Part shown: piece after piece, positions 8,393-15,880 of the stretch
Layout: each line of letters begins with the position of its first letter
Position numbering within the stretch: the first letter of the stretch is position 1
Position numbers and translations under genes: made by a program
Virus record (IMG/VR): IMGVR_UViG_3300048588_000231
Location: 1 to 20,121 of that record
Length of the DNA stretch: 20,121 bases
Source: a virus
Strand: one strand, 5' to 3'
The notes under the pieces: generated by a model
The model's database searches: none
The model's input: only the letters and a program-made list of their open reading frames with translations
What the model was told of the DNA's origin: nothing

Positions 8393-8748
8393 CACCCCTG
8401 CTCCTTGTCTTCTGATAGGGCGGACCATTCGATCACATCAAGCCCGCAGTTTTCCGCTAGGGCTTTCTCCGCTGAAACACCCTTGGATGCCCGCCACCCC
8501 GGCAAAAGCACGATGGTATCGGCCTCAAGGCAGATGAACGCTGAATAGGCGGCGAACGCCTTGCGAATCGGGAAATCCTTCGGGTCGCCCTTGTGCGGAA
8601 ACTCGGCTGGATTGTAGACGCGGTGTCCAGCCGCTCGAAGTTCGCCGGCGACCTTGCGAAACAGAGGATAGTTATATTCTGGCAAGCCCGTCATTGGGCC
8701 AGACAGGTATATCACGCGAGGGTCTATCTTCGTCATGGCGGGGGTCAT
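8392..8748 (-). CDS. DUF4406 protein (nucleoside deoxyribosyltransferase-like fold)
   Basis: A 118-residue protein. V-I-Y-L-S-G-P-M-T-G near the N-terminus, then N-Y-P-L-F and V-Y-N-P-A-E-F-P are the family signature of DUF4406. This family is related to nucleoside 2-deoxyribosyltransferases and is common in phages; later I-V-L-L-P-G-W-x-x-S-K-G matches the family's substrate loop. Substrate unknown; a nucleotide or nucleotide-sugar binding or salvage role is inferred from the fold. ATGA overlap with the GcrA-like gene upstream and TGATG with the gene downstream. Confidence 0.85.
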   Translation of the reverse strand: MTPAMTKIDPRVIYLSGPMTGLPEYNYPLFRKVAGELRAAGHRVYNPAEFPHKGDPKDFPIRKAFAAYSAFICLEADTIVLLPGWRASKGVSAEKALAENCGLDVIEWSALSEDKEQG

Positions 8749-9302
8749 GCTGCTGCCTGCAAAACACGCGGGGCGTATCGTTCGCTCGATGTACCCGCTC
8801 CGATTGATCTACGACGATGGCATTCGCACCACGGCCCTTCTGATGGCGCGCCGCAGAACAGGTGCATCTCGCCCTTCTCCGCGTCGTTCACAGCCCAACG
8901 GCATTCGTTGAAGCCCAGCAAGTGAATGGGCCTGCCGACTGTCATGCGCTCGCCCGGAACGAATGAAGGCTCAGGAAGTGGCTTTGAGGGCACATGCTCG
9001 AACAGGATCGAAGGCGACACCACCTTGATGCGGCGGCGCGGCTGGGCAGGCTTGTGAACGCGCAGTTCGCTGGCGGGCTTGGCGCGGCTCTTGCGCTTCT
9101 TGAGTTCCGCAACACGCTGTCCGGGCCAGCCAGACGCGCGAGCAAAACCTATCGCCGCCAATTCCTTGTTGCGATGAACGCGGCCAATGACGGCATTGCC
9201 GGACATACCCATTAGAGCGCCGATCTTACGGGCTGACAGGCCCTCGCGGAGCAAATCAGCAACGCGCGCATCCTGTTCCCGTGTCCAGAGCTTGAATGCC
9301 AT
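8745..9302 (-). CDS. GcrA-family cell-cycle regulator, phage-encoded
   Basis: 185 residues from ATG 9302, coupled to the preceding stop by TGATG; the longer frame to 9341 has no support. Residues 6-45 give the GcrA N-terminal DNA-binding region (L-W-T-R-E-Q-D-A-R-V, then A-R-K-I-G-A-L-M, then G-N-A-V-I-G-R-V-H-R). The C-terminal region has the family's C-R-W (134-136), F-C-G-A (149-152), W-C-x-x-H (158-162) pattern, which resembles a small metal-binding or sigma-contact module. In Caulobacter and relatives GcrA binds sigma-70 and promoters methylated at GANTC by CcrM. A phage copy could redirect host cell-cycle transcription or time phage genes. The middle region (65-120) is longer and more basic than I would expect of host GcrA. 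Confidence 0.85.
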   Translation of the reverse strand: MAFKLWTREQDARVADLLREGLSARKIGALMGMSGNAVIGRVHRNKELAAIGFARASGWPGQRVAELKKRKSRAKPASELRVHKPAQPRRRIKVVSPSILFEHVPSKPLPEPSFVPGERMTVGRPIHLLGFNECRWAVNDAEKGEMHLFCGAPSEGPWCECHRRRSIGAGTSSERYAPRVLQAAA

Positions 9303-9535
9303 CACAACGCCTCCATGTTGACGCGAGGACGCCAAGGGCAACGCGGGTCATTGATGATCGGATCGCCCATAACCATCCCGGTCAGGCTACGATTGTCGTC
9401 CGGTATCTCTCCCCGGCGCTTGGCTAGTTCTTCGAGATTGATACGCCCTGCCATGCCGCGAAGGCCGGCGGCCTTTTTCCCGGCAGCCCCTTCTCGCCAT
9501 TCCAATTGACGTTCCAGTCTTTTTCTCGCGCTCAT
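9302..9535 (-). CDS. Small basic hypothetical protein, 77 aa
   Basis: ATG 9535 is preceded by AGGAGG and overlaps the stop of the helicase C-terminal remnant (ATGA). The first half is basic (R-K-R-L-E-R-Q-L-E-W-R-E) and the second contains P-D-D-N-R-S-L-T-G-M-V-M-G-D-P. Not recognised. The ribosome site lies inside the last codons of the remnant, so this gene was originally coupled to the helicase gene. Confidence 0.6.
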   Translation of the reverse strand: MSARKRLERQLEWREGAAGKKAAGLRGMAGRINLEELAKRRGEIPDDNRSLTGMVMGDPIINDPRCPWRPRVNMEAL

Positions 9536-9624
9536 GCTGCCTCCTGCTCACCGCGATTGAGGAACACGCGGTCCCAAACGCCACGGTCAAATGATGAGTG
9601 ATAACGATAGGTGGATTGGTTCAT
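9532..9624 (-). pseudogene. Orphan second copy of the helicase C-terminus (30 codons)
   Basis: Immediately after the HNH stop (ATGA overlap) the minus strand encodes M-N-Q-S-T-Y-R-Y-H-S-S-F-D-R-G-V-W-D-R and ends E-Q-E-A-A, then TGA. The helicase gene at 10130-11947 ends with the related Q-E-T-Y-R-Y-H-S-S-F-D-R-S-L-W-D-R. The two copies share Y-R-Y-H-S-S-F-D-R-x-x-W-D-R but differ at nearly every third codon position, so this is not a recent copy. It is best read as the original 3' end of the helicase gene, cut off when the HNH cassette entered. It might still be translated as a tiny peptide. Confidence 0.8.
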
Positions 9625-10133
9625 GCGACGTTCGCAAACTCGCCATGTAGGCGTTTCGCGGCCTCCGCATATGCCGCTGCGGCTAGTTCTGGTGTCTCGA
9701 ACGTGCCGAGTCTGTGGCGATGCCCGGACGCCTTAATCTCCGCGCACCATTTCCCCAGCCTGCGATGTAGCCAGACGCCCTTATAGCCAGACGTGTTACG
9801 GCTAGTTTTCCCACGGTTGAACAGGTTCTCGGAGTTGGTGGCCTCGCGAAGGTTATCCCAAGCGTTGTTCGTGCCAATTAGATCGATGTGATCAACATGG
9901 TTTTCAGGCCATTGTCCCGTCATGTAGACCCACGCCAAGCGATGTCCCAAGAAGAGCTTCCGATGCGGTGGCAGGCGAATTTCGATATATTCGCGGTTTC
10001 GCCTTCGACACATCGAGCCAGCGACGACGCCCGTAAATCGCGATGTTCGGCCGGTCCTTTCTCGCCAGCGGAAAATCCCTGTTTTAGGGTCGTAGTCCAA
10101 AAGCACCCGGATTTCTTCAGCCGTCGGATTCAT
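9621..10133 (-). CDS. HNH homing endonuclease with AP2 domain (copy A)
   Basis: 170 residues. The HNH part reads H-R-L-A-W-V-Y, then H-V-D-H-I-D and N-N-A-W-D-N-L-R-E-A-T, followed by N-T-S-G-Y-K-G-V-W and an AP2-type DNA-binding domain to the end. This is the common HNH_3/AP2 architecture of mobile phage endonucleases, which cut an uninfected allele and spread by repair. The ATG overlaps the helicase stop (ATGA) and the stop overlaps the downstream remnant (ATGA), so the cassette is seamlessly coupled. It lies between two diverged versions of the same helicase 3' end, which marks both the target gene and the insertion point. Confidence 0.9.
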   Translation of the reverse strand: MNPTAEEIRVLLDYDPKTGIFRWRERTGRTSRFTGVVAGSMCRRRNREYIEIRLPPHRKLFLGHRLAWVYMTGQWPENHVDHIDLIGTNNAWDNLREATNSENLFNRGKTSRNTSGYKGVWLHRRLGKWCAEIKASGHRHRLGTFETPELAAAAYAEAAKRLHGEFANVA

Positions 10134-11947
10134 GCGGCATTCTCCTTAACTTCATCACGGGGAATATATTGCCGATCCCACAAGCTGCGATCGAAGGACG
10201 AGTGGTACCGGTAAGTCTCTTGACTAAACCAAAGCCCAACCTTGCCTTCGAAGTCGCCATTGCGCTGCTTGGCGACGTTCAGGAGGACGCCGGGCTTCTG
10301 GTCCAGTTCGTGGCGCTCGACCTCAGTCTTGGCTGCGCCTAGTTCTTCCTCGTGGCGACGGTTGCGCCACACCGTCAGGATATTGAAGGCGTTGGCTCCG
10401 ATCTCCATTGCGCCCTTGATGTCCTCGGTTTCAGGTGCTCCCTGCCCACGCTCTCCCTTTCGGGAATGCGCCACCAGATGCAGGTGCACGTTGTTCTGGA
10501 TCGTCCAGTCGACAATCTGGAAGACTGCCTTTTCCTGCCCGTTGTAATCATCCTGGGCGATGCCAAGGCGCATCAGGCTGTCGATGATGAACTGGTCGCA
10601 GCCGTACTTGGCGCGGGCATAGTCGAAGACTTCCAACAAAGCCGGCACACCCGCCTTGCCGACGCGCTCGTAGAGCAGCAAGCCCCTGTCGAGCCAATCC
10701 AGTATGCGTTCGATGAACGGCCCGGTTGGCCGGTCCACACCACCCGTCTGCTTGCACATGCGGCGCAAGGTCTGCTCACCCTTCATTTCGAGTGAAGCGA
10801 GGCAAATGCGGCTGCCCTGCTTGATCCAGTGAGGGATGCAGTCGGAAATGATCTGGCTCTTGCCTGACCCCGCCGCGCCGCTCCACAGCGTCATCTCTGC
10901 CGGCCGGAAATGCAGCTTGTCGGATATCTTGCCGTAAGGAACAGAGTATCCCTGCCGTTCCTCATGGGCAGGCCAGAACAGGTGAACAACCTTGTCGGTG
11001 TAATCGCTGGCTCGCTTTAATCCTTCCGGGTCTAGGGCTTCCGCCCTTTGCAGCGCCTCACCCATTGCAAACTCGCCAATGCCCGACACAAGGCATTCGT
11101 TCGCATCCTTGGCCGGCAACTTAACCCGATAGCAACGATGGCGTCCGAGACGGGCCGCAATTTCCGCTGCGGCTTCGTCTCCGGGCTGATCCATGTCCGT
11201 TGAAATATAAATCCTCTCGAACCGGTCCAGCCGCTCGAACTCGTTTTCGATCCAGTTCTGTTTCCCGCCCTTGCCGCCGCCGAACGGGACAGACATGGCC
11301 GGATACCCATAAGCCGCCCATGACAGCGCATCGATTTCGCCTTCAGTGATGATGACCTGACGAGCGTCTGCCGGGATTGCCTGCCACCCGAACAGGATAG
11401 GCTCGCAATTCGCAGCGGTAGGACGTGGCTTGGCCCCATCTTTGGCCTCCCTCGCCTTGGCAAGCGCTAGAACACCATCCGGCAGCAGGAATGGGAAAAT
11501 GATATCGTTGCCCTGCGCTGCGACCTTGTACGATTTCAGGATTTGAGCCGGTATGTTCCGATCTTCGGTGAGGTAATCCAGAACCCGGCCTTGTGCTTCC
11601 GTGCATTGGGGCTTCGGCGGGCGCGTGAAGGCTTTCTTTGGCTCCCGGTAAGGTTCTGGCCTTGTGACGCCAAGCCATGCCCTTGCTGCGTCCAGCGCCT
11701 CGGAAAGCGTACCGCCCTTGCAGGCTACCCACAGGTCCAGCAGGTCGCCGCCCTCGCCTGATTGGAAATCCTGCCACACGCCGGCCTTCGGCCCGACGAG
11801 ATGGACACCAAGCGATTGCCCCTTCTCACCACCCACAGAGCCGGCGCGCCATTCTGGCCCATCCTTGCGGCCACCAGGCAAGAGCATTTCCGCCACGGCC
11901 TGCGCGCGGTCTGCCAACATGCGTTTGATTTCGGTGATATCGGCCAT
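10130..11947 (-). CDS. TOPRIM primase/DnaB-type helicase
   Basis: 605 residues with a gp4-like layout. An N-terminal region lacks an obvious cysteine zinc finger. A TOPRIM domain follows (I-I-T-E-G-E-I-D-A-L-S with E202; S-T-D-M-D-Q-P-G-D with D251/D253). Then comes a RecA-fold helicase with Walker A G-A-A-G-S-G-K-S (357-364) and Walker B F-I-I-D-S (453-457), plus V-A-H-S-R-K and K-Q-R-N-G-D further on. It should unwind DNA at the phage fork; primase activity is uncertain without a zinc finger. ATG 11947 overlaps the upstream stop (TGATG). The last about 30 codons are the version adjoining the HNH cassette; a diverged alternative end is stranded at 9532-9624. Confidence 0.9.
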   Translation of the reverse strand: MADITEIKRMLADRAQAVAEMLLPGGRKDGPEWRAGSVGGEKGQSLGVHLVGPKAGVWQDFQSGEGGDLLDLWVACKGGTLSEALDAARAWLGVTRPEPYREPKKAFTRPPKPQCTEAQGRVLDYLTEDRNIPAQILKSYKVAAQGNDIIFPFLLPDGVLALAKAREAKDGAKPRPTAANCEPILFGWQAIPADARQVIITEGEIDALSWAAYGYPAMSVPFGGGKGGKQNWIENEFERLDRFERIYISTDMDQPGDEAAAEIAARLGRHRCYRVKLPAKDANECLVSGIGEFAMGEALQRAEALDPEGLKRASDYTDKVVHLFWPAHEERQGYSVPYGKISDKLHFRPAEMTLWSGAAGSGKSQIISDCIPHWIKQGSRICLASLEMKGEQTLRRMCKQTGGVDRPTGPFIERILDWLDRGLLLYERVGKAGVPALLEVFDYARAKYGCDQFIIDSLMRLGIAQDDYNGQEKAVFQIVDWTIQNNVHLHLVAHSRKGERGQGAPETEDIKGAMEIGANAFNILTVWRNRRHEEELGAAKTEVERHELDQKPGVLLNVAKQRNGDFEGKVGLWFSQETYRYHSSFDRSLWDRQYIPRDEVKENAA

Positions 11948-12648
11948 CAGAGGACACCCCGATATTCCGGCTCGTCACGCCAGTCAGACGGCTTCCCTGC
12001 ACTGGGCTTGCCCCGCCTATCGTCAGCAGCCTTGCGAACCCAGTTCTTCCACGTGGATTGCCAATCGAGCTTCACGCCACGCTGGCCCGGTTGACCCCGC
12101 CAGTAATCTCGGAACTTCTCGGCCTCCCTTGCAGCTTCGCCTGCCGACAAGCCTTCAGCCTTGGCGAATACCTCGTCAGGCGACCATTCGTCCGGAAGTC
12201 GTGAACCGCGTTTTTTGGAAACACCGCTAGGTGTTTCTTTTCCTTCTATGGTTATGGTATCTGGAAGATGCTGTGGCAAAACGGTAGCAATTGCTACAGC
12301 CGTTTCTTTATCTTTCAATGACTTAGAAGCGCCACCCTTGGCCCCGGCGGAAGCTCTCGATTGGCTTTTACTCTCGCTTTTTTGGAGCTCTTTTGTAAGG
12401 CGATTATGGGTGATGGCGCCGTCCTGACGGTTGAAAAACGGCATCATGTCATCGGCAACGGCGCGCCATTTTTTCAGCGACATTCGGCACACTCTGGCCA
12501 ACTTCACGTCGTCATCTGGAAGGCTACCGCCAGCGTTCCACATGGCCATCAGCATGAGCATGTAGGCCCCGATATGCTCGGTGCTAAGGTGCAGCGTATC
12601 CCCAAGGAAGTCGGAGACATAGAGCTGCATAAATGGCCGCTCGCTCAT
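11947..12648 (-). CDS. DUF1376 (YdaU-like) replication protein
   Basis: 233 residues from ATG 12648, which overlaps the upstream stop (ATGA). The longer frame to 12723 lies inside the upstream gene and is rejected. The N-terminal region P-F-M-Q-L-Y-V-S-D-F-L-G-D-T, then L-S-T-E-H-I-G-A-Y, is the DUF1376 signature. A low-complexity Ser/Lys linker follows, then a C-terminal domain with Y-W-R-G-Q-P-G-Q-R-G-V-K-L-D-W-Q-S-T-W-K, found at the end of phage replication initiators and helicase loaders. Directly upstream of the helicase, it is the best candidate for the origin-binding or loader protein. Confidence 0.85.
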   Translation of the reverse strand: MSERPFMQLYVSDFLGDTLHLSTEHIGAYMLMLMAMWNAGGSLPDDDVKLARVCRMSLKKWRAVADDMMPFFNRQDGAITHNRLTKELQKSESKSQSRASAGAKGGASKSLKDKETAVAIATVLPQHLPDTITIEGKETPSGVSKKRGSRLPDEWSPDEVFAKAEGLSAGEAAREAEKFRDYWRGQPGQRGVKLDWQSTWKNWVRKAADDRRGKPSAGKPSDWRDEPEYRGVL

Positions 12649-12839
12649 TGAAGCGTCTCCCCATTGTATAGGGCTTGAAGGGGAGCCGGGACGGCAATCT
12701 GATGCTCTGGCGGGAGCCGGCAATTGATGAACTCAATCCAAGCGTCAGCGGCGCGCTGGGCATCTTCGTACAGCATCGACTTTTCGGCCTGATGCTTGGC
12801 GTCTCGATATGCGAGAAATGCTTTGTGCTGGTCGCTCAA
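12645..12839 (-). CDS. Small hypothetical protein, 64 aa
   Basis: Starts at TTG 12839, overlapping the stop of the DUF1064 gene (TTGA), and its stop overlaps the DUF1376 start (ATGA). The sequence is helical (A-F-L-A-Y-R-D-A-K-H-Q-A-E-K) with a Pro-rich tail. Function unknown; confidence rests on the tight coupling at both ends. Confidence 0.55.
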   Translation of the reverse strand: MSDQHKAFLAYRDAKHQAEKSMLYEDAQRAADAWIEFINCRLPPEHQIAVPAPLQALYNGETLQ

Positions 12840-13209: not shown

Positions 13210-13314
13210 TCAAACCACCACCCTCCACGCCAGATAGGCCAGCGGAGCGGTTGCCAGAGCCATGAGGATGACAAGACGGAGTAAGCCGGGAGAGACGGGT
13301 TCAGGGGCGTTCAT
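13210..13314 (-). CDS. Tiny single-span membrane protein, 34 aa
   Basis: ATG 13314 overlaps the HNH copy B stop (ATGA). The sequence begins M-N-A-P-E-P-V-S-P-G and is followed by a hydrophobic helix (L-L-R-L-V-I-L-M-A-L-A-T-A-P-L-A-Y-L-A) and a short V-V-V end. One transmembrane segment is predicted by eye. It fits the gap between the HNH and DUF1064 genes exactly. Family not recognised. Confidence 0.55.
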   Translation of the reverse strand: MNAPEPVSPGLLRLVILMALATAPLAYLAWRVVV

Positions 13315-13868
13315 TTCGCGTATTCCTTCTCAGAAGCCTTGCCAGCAACAGAATCAGCAAAGCGCACAAGCGCCGTAGCCGTGCGGCCATGGTTCTGGTG
13401 GTAACCGTTATCGTCTTGGAAAATGCTTCGCGCTGCGGCGGCGGCTTCGAGGCTATCAAAGCTGCCGATATGTTTGTTTTTCCCGCCGTGACATGATTGC
13501 GCGTACCAGCGGCCCGTTCTTGGGTTGAGGTACACTCCGGGAACGCCGTGCGAATTGTCTGATCTAAGTGGGCTATTCCTCATGTTTTCGAGATGAGAAA
13601 CAGCCCTCAGATTTACTATCCTGTTATCGAGACAGTCTCCGTTGACGTGGTCTATTTCTCCATCGGGAAACTCGCCGTGCATATAGAGCCAAGCCAGCCG
13701 ATGCGCAGGGTAAGGTCTGCCGCCAATCCCAATCCGCCAGTATTTCCCCGATCGACAGCCTGCATTCGCGCCAGCTTGTGCTTTGGGAGAGGTGGAAATC
13801 CTCCAAACAAAAACACCCGTCTGCGGATCGTACGAAAGCAGGTTGCGAATTTCATCAGTGCTCAGCAT
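13311..13868 (-). CDS. HNH homing endonuclease with AP2 domain (copy B)
   Basis: 185 residues from ATG 13868 (AGGGGG, 5 nt upstream; GTG at 13871 also possible). The order is D-E-I-R-N-L-L-S-Y-D-P-Q-T-G, H-R-L-A-W-L-Y, E-I-D-H-V-N-G-D and N-R-I-V-N-L-R-A-V. An AP2-type part follows from S-H-G-V-P-G-V-Y, and a basic tail of about 25 residues. It is the same architecture as the other three HNH genes but clearly diverged, so separate arrivals are likely. It starts 9 nt after the upstream stop, and its stop is coupled to the tiny membrane protein. I see no duplicated gene end around this copy. Confidence 0.88.
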   Translation of the reverse strand: MLSTDEIRNLLSYDPQTGVFVWRISTSPKAQAGANAGCRSGKYWRIGIGGRPYPAHRLAWLYMHGEFPDGEIDHVNGDCLDNRIVNLRAVSHLENMRNSPLRSDNSHGVPGVYLNPRTGRWYAQSCHGGKNKHIGSFDSLEAAAAARSIFQDDNGYHQNHGRTATALVRFADSVAGKASEKEYAK

Positions 13869-13877
13869 CACTCCCCC

Positions 13878-14689: not shown

Positions 14690-15357
14690 GAGCCACCCCC
14701 GACCAATCGAGATTCTCGCTCGCACTCGACGGATACCGGATTGGCAAATTCACCAAACGCACGTAGCGCGGCCAAACGATAGGCATCCGCCGCTCGCTCA
14801 CGAGACAGGAAAGAGCCGAGATGCTTCTTCTTCCCATCGATAACGATAGATGCCGTCCATACTTGCGCGGCTTTGTTCCAAGACACGCCCTTGACCCCCG
14901 ACGTATTGCGAGGGGAGAGACCACTATTCGCCCCATTTTGGCTAAGCGTCGCTGGCCTGAGATTTTCTATTCTATTGTCGGCACGAAGGCGGTTCTTGTG
15001 GTCAATAAATGTGCCTGGTTCTTCGCCGTAGTGTACCAACCATGCCAAATGGTGGGCCCTGAACTGTCTGCCAAGAATACGGATGCGTACGTACCCGTTG
15101 TGAGTAAGCGTACCCGCTTCTTTGCCCGCGTTCTTCCCATTCCACGCCCTATTTTGAGGCGAATCCATTGGCTTCGGGAGCCACCAGAATTTGCCGGTCT
15201 GCGGATCGTACCGAATGGCTTTTTTGATTTCTTCGACATCAATCGAATTGATTTGCGCGCTGTCCCTCGTCGCGCATGGCTGGGCGGGGGTGTGTCCCTG
15301 CTCTCGTCCAGCCGCCTCCTGATTGGGTGCAACGACAATTTCTTTACTAGCCACCAT
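14686..15357 (-). CDS. HNH homing endonuclease with AP2 domain (copy C)
   Basis: 223 residues from ATG 15357, with GGAGG 7 nt upstream; the frame continues up to 15459 but that part is inside copy D. A 40-residue polar N-terminal extension precedes the usual start (E-E-I-K-K-A-I-R-Y-D-P-Q-T-G). Then come H-H-L-A-W, F-I-D-H-K-N, N-R-I-E-N-L-R-P-A-T and an AP2 part (N-T-S-G-V-K-G-V-S-W). The HNH core has K-N in place of the usual D/N-G-x pair, a point to check for activity. It overlaps copy D by 11 nt. The tail after G-E-F-A-N ends in R-E-S-R-L-V-G-G-G-S. Confidence 0.87.
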   Translation of the reverse strand: MVASKEIVVAPNQEAAGREQGHTPAQPCATRDSAQINSIDVEEIKKAIRYDPQTGKFWWLPKPMDSPQNRAWNGKNAGKEAGTLTHNGYVRIRILGRQFRAHHLAWLVHYGEEPGTFIDHKNRLRADNRIENLRPATLSQNGANSGLSPRNTSGVKGVSWNKAAQVWTASIVIDGKKKHLGSFLSRERAADAYRLAALRAFGEFANPVSVECERESRLVGGGS

Positions 15358-15880
15358 GTGCAGGCCTCCGCCCATGCATGGGATGGAAGCCGTAGCGTAT
15401 CTCTGCCAAACGTCGGGCTTCGGCTGCATCCGCCAGACTGTCGAATATTCCGAGTTCAATCGGATTGGGTTTTAAGCCCAGCCTAGCGCGCCATCTGCCC
15501 GTGGCCTTATGGAAGCTGACACCAATCACGCCGGAAGTATTGCGCCTATCAAGGCCTCTATTCCTGAGGTTTTCGGACCTCGTAACCTCTCGTAGATTGG
15601 AAATCTTATTGTTGAGGCGGTCACCGTCGATATGGTCTATTTCTCTCGCCCAGCACCCATGTACGACGGCCCACACGATATGATGCTCTCTATACAACCC
15701 GCCGAGAACGCGAACGACCCTGTACCCTTGCGTGTTGACGCCCCCGGCTCGTTTGCCAGAGAACCTTGCGTTCCAATGGGGGTGGCGGTCGTCTCGATAC
15801 CGCCAGAACAAAGTGCCACTTTCCGGATACACATCCAGCCAACTAAACAGCACGGGGAGCGGCATGAAGTTCGCGCTCAT
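15347..15880 (-). CDS. HNH homing endonuclease with AP2 domain (copy D)
   Basis: 177 residues. ATG 15880 overlaps the stop of the preceding gene (ATGA). It shows S-G-T-L-F-W-R-Y, E-H-H-I-V-W, E-I-D-H-I-D-G-D, N-K-I-S-N-L-R-E-V-T, S-E-N-L-R-N-R and R-N-T-S-G-V-I-G-V-S-F leading into the AP2 domain. All key His/Asn positions look intact. It stands directly beside copy C, so two endonuclease genes have stacked at one junction of the operon. Confidence 0.9.
   Translation of the reverse strand: MSANFMPLPVLFSWLDVYPESGTLFWRYRDDRHPHWNARFSGKRAGGVNTQGYRVVRVLGGLYREHHIVWAVVHGCWAREIDHIDGDRLNNKISNLREVTRSENLRNRGLDRRNTSGVIGVSFHKATGRWRARLGLKPNPIELGIFDSLADAAEARRLAEIRYGFHPMHGRRPAHGG

Follow-up and report, generated by a model that had tools for sequence, protein, structure and literature searches.

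A phage HNH gene inserted together with a foreign 3′ end of its primase-helicase target: a probable case of terminus replacement by a homing endonuclease

An HNH gene lying between two diverged copies of the 3′ end of one helicase gene raises the question of which end is the original one and how the other came to be there. The window, which is the whole stretch of DNA analyzed here, covers 20,121 nt, positions 1 to 20,121 of the IMG/VR virus record IMGVR_UViG_3300048588_000231. The layout given in the original prediction, with the HNH gene between the two ends, ATGA overlaps and a 30-codon frame, was confirmed, all features being on the minus strand. The target, described there as a helicase, was indeed so and could be refined by Pfam (Toprim_2, AAA_25/DnaB_C) and PHROGs (PHROG 239, “DNA primase/helicase”) to a DNA primase/helicase of the Toprim + DnaB-like type (10130..11947, 605 aa). 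It is chimeric, with a native body of codons 1–~574 and a foreign last portion of ~31 codons (10130..10226); its C-terminus is GLWFSQETYRYHSSFDRSLWDRQYIPRDEVKENAA (in a fuller stretch, SQETYRYHSSFDRSLWDRQYIPRDEVKENAA), followed by the stop codon. The HNH gene (9621..10133, 170 aa) overlaps this end with its start through ATGA, and an AAGGAG inside the foreign helicase end precedes its ATG. The 30-codon frame (9624..9532) encodes MNQSTYRYHSSFDRGVWDRVFLNRGEQEAA up to its stop and overlaps both the HNH stop and the start of the next gene (9535), with an AGGAGG inside it preceding the ATG of the latter. Pairwise alignment with two empty alleles, L003 and L404, delimited the inserted cassette, which consists of the foreign last ~31 helicase codons and the HNH gene, to 606 nt (9621..10226) in place of 2 nt. 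The insertion point is at codon 574/575 of the primase-helicase, within the conserved motif GLWF-xQ-x-TYRYHSS; the empty-allele sequence around it is GGGCTTTGGTTCGACCAATCCACC, and the native sequence at the putative target site of the HNH enzyme is GLWFDQSTYRYHSS.

The origin of each end was indicated by relatives without the HNH gene. Among the 47 IMG/VR loci that encode the helicase, the closest without the HNH gene is L003, in which the helicase ends in GLWFDQSTYRYHSSFDRGVWDRVFLARGEQEAA and its stop and passes straight into the next gene. The DNA identity of the window to L003 was 95.3% for the body (codons 1–573) and 92.2% for the stranded copy, and that of the present helicase end was 60.0%. 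The second empty allele, L404, is 99.94% identical to L003 and likewise continues into the 9532–9624 version, and more distant helicases without the HNH gene (~78–88% protein identity) end in DQ/EQ-x-TYRYHSSFDRG, like the stranded copy. From these comparisons, the present end is foreign and the 9532–9624 end native. The empty allele that had been predicted, running into the 9532–9624 version, was thus found, as was the stranding of the original end, and the opposite outcome, in which empty relatives end like 10130–10230 with the 9532–9624 segment as an independent gene elsewhere, was not encountered.

The two ends have 16 of 25 residues in common, with a DNA identity of 57%, and their similarity score of 96, which is 17–19 s.d. 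above shuffles, was the highest among 305 HNH loci. The claim of a common protein motif with nearly all third codon positions different held in that 19 of 24 third positions differ, but the first and second positions also differ (6 of 24 each). Therefore, the new end is a diverged homologue and did not arise by purely synonymous recoding, so that in the phrase “foreign, recoded C-terminus” the first adjective stands, in line with the low identity to the L003 end, and the second does not, nor is recoding by design indicated. Searches for the donor of the foreign end gave a best match of 79% over 52 nt (L007) by blastn among the loci, no match by tblastn of 49 residues in phages, and, by a peptide-pattern scan, nothing beyond the contigs already known and one distant helicase (L081).

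The enzyme encoded by the cassette matched HNH_3 (PF13392) with 52 bits (cutoff, 24.8) and AP2 (PF00847) with 38.9 bits (cutoff, 33.3), the latter, together with an ERF domain match in PDB, indicating a separate DNA-binding domain. D81, H82, and N103 are conserved and spaced like D74, H75, and N96 of I-HmuI (numbering of PMC12724721). The HNH protein, a predicted endonuclease, has the D-H…N residues of active enzymes, and the combination of HNH_3 with AP2 is recognizable as the IPA-HNH homing endonuclease architecture. With a probability of about three in four, we consider the 606-nt insert to be a terminus-replacing free-standing HNH homing endonuclease gene that comes together with a foreign version of its target gene's 3′ end. 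The gene-end replacement by an intronless homing endonuclease that had been proposed is supported, in anatomy and direction, by L003 and L404.

The HNH gene exhibits presence/absence polymorphism at one site in this conserved gene, being present in the window, L001 (identical to the window), L002, and L011 and absent from L003 and L404. The window, L002, and L011 have an identical cassette and ~2.2 kb of downstream sequence (DNA identical down to 7375), whereas their helicase bodies differ. The helicase of L011 agrees with L003 at 51/51 informative sites from 11465 to 10433 and with the window at 10268–10226, placing the switch from the empty-allele to the cassette haplotype within 10268..10433 (minus strand), 42–207 bp before the insertion point. 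The cassette was transferred with 42–207 bp of its upstream flank into an L003-like genome, and the empty L404 and the occupied L011 come from the same metagenome. Because the same pattern would result from one ordinary crossover, the flank downstream resembling the window for >2 kb, L011 is evidence of transfer and does not yet demonstrate homing driven by the endonuclease. Only one cassette haplotype was found, from what look like related metagenomes. An assembly artefact was ruled out, since the four occupied contigs differ in their flanks and isolate genomes show the same arrangement.

The arrangement was also sought at 305 testable HNH genes, obtained from HNH-motif pattern scans and other loci, by counting those with a peptide common to the ~330 nt before and the ~150 nt after the HNH gene (z of at least 6 and score of at least 40). 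Ten of the 305 had such a peptide on both sides, and the number expected was 0.8 (mean of ten permutations), about 12 times fewer. Relatives without the HNH gene confirmed one further gene-end case and two gene-start cases. In the former, the i-spanin gene of Salmonella phages Seszw_1 (L113), SB28, BUCT_XGG_PSM_3377, and LPSTLL ends in NAGLTCQKQYESLIK and a stop before the HNH gene, with AREAGLMCEAQYNSLRNKKPLS and its stop stranded after the HNH gene in Seszw_1; the gene has the ending AREAGLACEAQYNSLRNK in the HNH-less Shigella phage DS8, Salmonella phages INT59, Skate, and 64795_sal3, and Escherichia phage HC8A. The replaced end is longer here than the stranded piece. In the first gene-start case (L296), the HNH gene opens with the start that belongs to the portal gene, ATGACTGACAAATTAACTCTCGCCGT, which over 26 nt shows no difference from relatives that lack this HNH gene (Klebsiella phage ST13-OXA48phi12.5, Kp4864-1, and CobraSix, the last having another small gene upstream), and the portal gene now starts with the recoded ATGAGCGATAAATTAACACTTGCGGTA; its scan values (z 5.9, score 38) are just below the counting threshold. 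In the second (L316), a nuclease gene now starts with ATGACAACAATTATTGC, and its displaced start, ATGAGCACAATCATCGC, as in the relative MW202545 (L402), runs into a stop, the HNH gene starting separately. Candidate cases are thyX (L095), terS (L114), a tail fibre gene (L300), L162, a RuvC-like gene (L057), and a gene end in L215. For L300, a distant search of relatives found no usable HNH-less allele; among the HNH neighbours L054–L060, a shared start occurs only in L057; and the scan matches L345 and L186 were inspected and not counted as cases. In the 5′ form, comprising the portal and nuclease genes and the thyX, terS, tail fibre, and ruvC-like candidates, the HNH gene would capture the start signals of its target.

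As a separate observation, an int-alpA-like RNA (RF02996) was detected immediately ahead of the HNH gene in L395 (1083–1147, E 0.0015) and L215 (2146–2212, minus strand, E 0.0055), both below the gathering score, and by sequence motif also in L113 (~12620–12700) and L118. It is possibly an HNH-associated RNA.

Phage genomes are mosaic, and the helicase end and the HNH gene could have been joined in by illegitimate recombination, with the HNH gene having no part in its own spread; the single crossover that is enough for L011 would suit such ordinary mosaicism. Against this stand the loss of only 2 nt on insertion with exact restoration of the reading frame, the recurrence with other HNH genes and unrelated targets, at gene ends and starts, well above the permutation level, and the assignment of the IPA-HNH architecture to a homing endonuclease class, and we regard this explanation as unlikely, although deserving some weight. 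That the stranded frame acts as a functional small gene or as a translational-coupling leader, and is not a mere relic, is suggested by its being open over 30 codons, beginning on the HNH stop and carrying the AGGAGG for the next gene. It is, however, the native helicase end in L003, from which it differs by 3 amino-acid changes in 30, with no sign of strong protein selection, making this very improbable as an explanation of its own; a functional role would be compatible with terminus replacement as a secondary one. A tandem duplication of the helicase end within the phage, followed by divergence and insertion of the HNH gene between the copies, would account for one motif in two copies in tandem, but it is refuted by the empty alleles L003 and L404, and an in-situ copy could hardly have diverged alone to 60% while the body stayed at 95% and the stranded copy at 92%, which leaves it scarcely credible. 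Introns frequently harbour HNH genes, but an HNH gene inside a group I intron or an intein, with the second copy as the 3′ exon, can practically be dismissed, given that the helicase is already full-length with its stop before the HNH gene, the 4-nt overlaps on each side leave no space for an intron, and a search of the entire window against Rfam gave no match, even at a limit of E = 1.

The arrangement resembles that of the WHO elements, which in Torulaspora and Lachancea yeasts are found at the aldolase gene FBA1 (Coughlan et al. 2020, PMC7282813) and in which an endonuclease gene is accompanied by a different, replacement 3′ end upstream, the target is chimeric and intact, and the displaced native end lies downstream. 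Here, too, a foreign 3′ end directly precedes the endonuclease gene in a chimeric full-length target, and the displaced native fragment lies downstream. WHO elements, however, have an intein-related (HO-like) zinc-finger enzyme that targets FBA1, a nuclear yeast gene, with proposed meiotic homing, relic clusters, and demonstrated cleavage and allele specificity (PMC7282813), whereas the present enzyme is of the HNH_3/AP2 type, resides in a phage primase-helicase gene in single copy, has putative activity, and belongs to an arrangement that has a 5′ mirror form in phage genes as well. By this analogy, the phage cassette would work like a WHO element but is not one. The fungal mitochondrial mORFs with foreign C-termini in Allomyces atp6 and Glomus atp6, atp9, cox2, and nad3 (PMC3630166) similarly combine a foreign C-terminus and an endonuclease ORF with the native C-terminus left downstream, and the identities to a relative in Glomus (native, 91–98%; inserted, 64–81%; PMC3630166) are comparable to the 92% and 60% here. 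They differ in encoding LAGLIDADG or GIY-YIG enzymes in mitochondria, some fused in frame, as opposed to HNH in an IMG/VR virus record with phage genes. The free-standing HNH and GIY-YIG endonucleases of T4-like and other phages, which spread by intronless homing, share with the present case a position beside a conserved gene, presence/absence among relatives, a nearby recombination boundary, and HNH with AP2 (IPA-HNH), but the accessible parts of these accounts do not describe gene-end replacement or a stranded terminus (PMC2988022, PMC10448857, PMC12724721). The ShiLan-type insertions in phage methylase genes, likewise intron-less and intein-less HNH genes within a phage gene, are, in the part of the account available, tolerated in frame with no replacement end (PMC11855218). 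No phage precedent for terminus replacement was found in the open-access literature.

Under terminus replacement by a homing endonuclease, the HNH enzyme would cut or nick HNH-less alleles at a putative site extending across the insertion point; a co-infecting phage with the cassette would serve as the repair template, from which the foreign end would be copied in together with the HNH gene, with one crossover in the helicase body and one in the displaced native end. The foreign end restores a full-length and presumably functional helicase and supplies the likely ribosome-binding site of the HNH gene, and the next gene keeps its own in the displaced native end. A recognition site lying wholly in the native end would leave the stranded copy cuttable, so the site probably extends over both sides of the insertion point; its left half would be retained in the occupied allele and its right half would survive in the stranded copy. 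The occupied allele may be resistant. The replacement end would have to differ from the native one because the site would otherwise be rebuilt, or a direct repeat could recombine the HNH gene away; the divergence of the new end may thus also prevent its deletion by repeat recombination.

The other HNH genes of the window gave no clean case of terminus replacement. The HNH gene at 13311–13871 (minus strand) ends in TALVRFADSVAGKASEKEYAK. In L003, where this HNH gene is absent, that sequence closes a different gene; 13377–13175 is 96% identical to L003, and the upstream gene (14255–13878) is of another PHROG family than the L003 gene. This is a fusion of an HNH gene with a gene end that was displaced, not a homologous replacement. 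L002 (1–330) has yet another gene end there, which makes the place look like a hot spot for gene exchange. Two more HNH_3/AP2-type genes are present at 14740–15237 and 15416–15838 (minus strand), making four in 20 kb, and the former also has a copy in L003 (~97% DNA identity). A phage-encoded homologue of the cell-cycle regulator GcrA (8745–9341, minus strand) suggests an alphaproteobacterial host. In Bartonella (L073, L074, L077, and L079), the helicase matches are split by 0.26–0.54 kb near residue 191–196, which is the boundary before the Toprim domain.

A replacement terminus explains how a selfish gene that is neither in an intron nor in an intein can target a conserved, presumably essential gene without killing it. 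Most previously known examples of the terminus-replacing strategy come from yeast and from the mitochondria of fungi, and here it is HNH-based and in phages; the same logic with an unrelated nuclease family suggests repeated invention. The signature of the same peptide in different codons flanking an HNH gene on both sides can be used for searches, testable predictions are provided, including for cultured Salmonella phages, and annotators should be aware that a short ORF adjoining an HNH gene may represent a gene end that was displaced. We lean toward the view that replacement of a gene end or start with a diverged copy, in both orientations, is a general strategy of integration, unrecognised until now, among free-standing phage HNH homing endonucleases, that it evolved independently of WHO elements and mORFs, and that it would steadily exchange the ends of conserved genes between lineages; this offers a mechanism by which mosaic junctions arise within the terminal parts of phage core genes.
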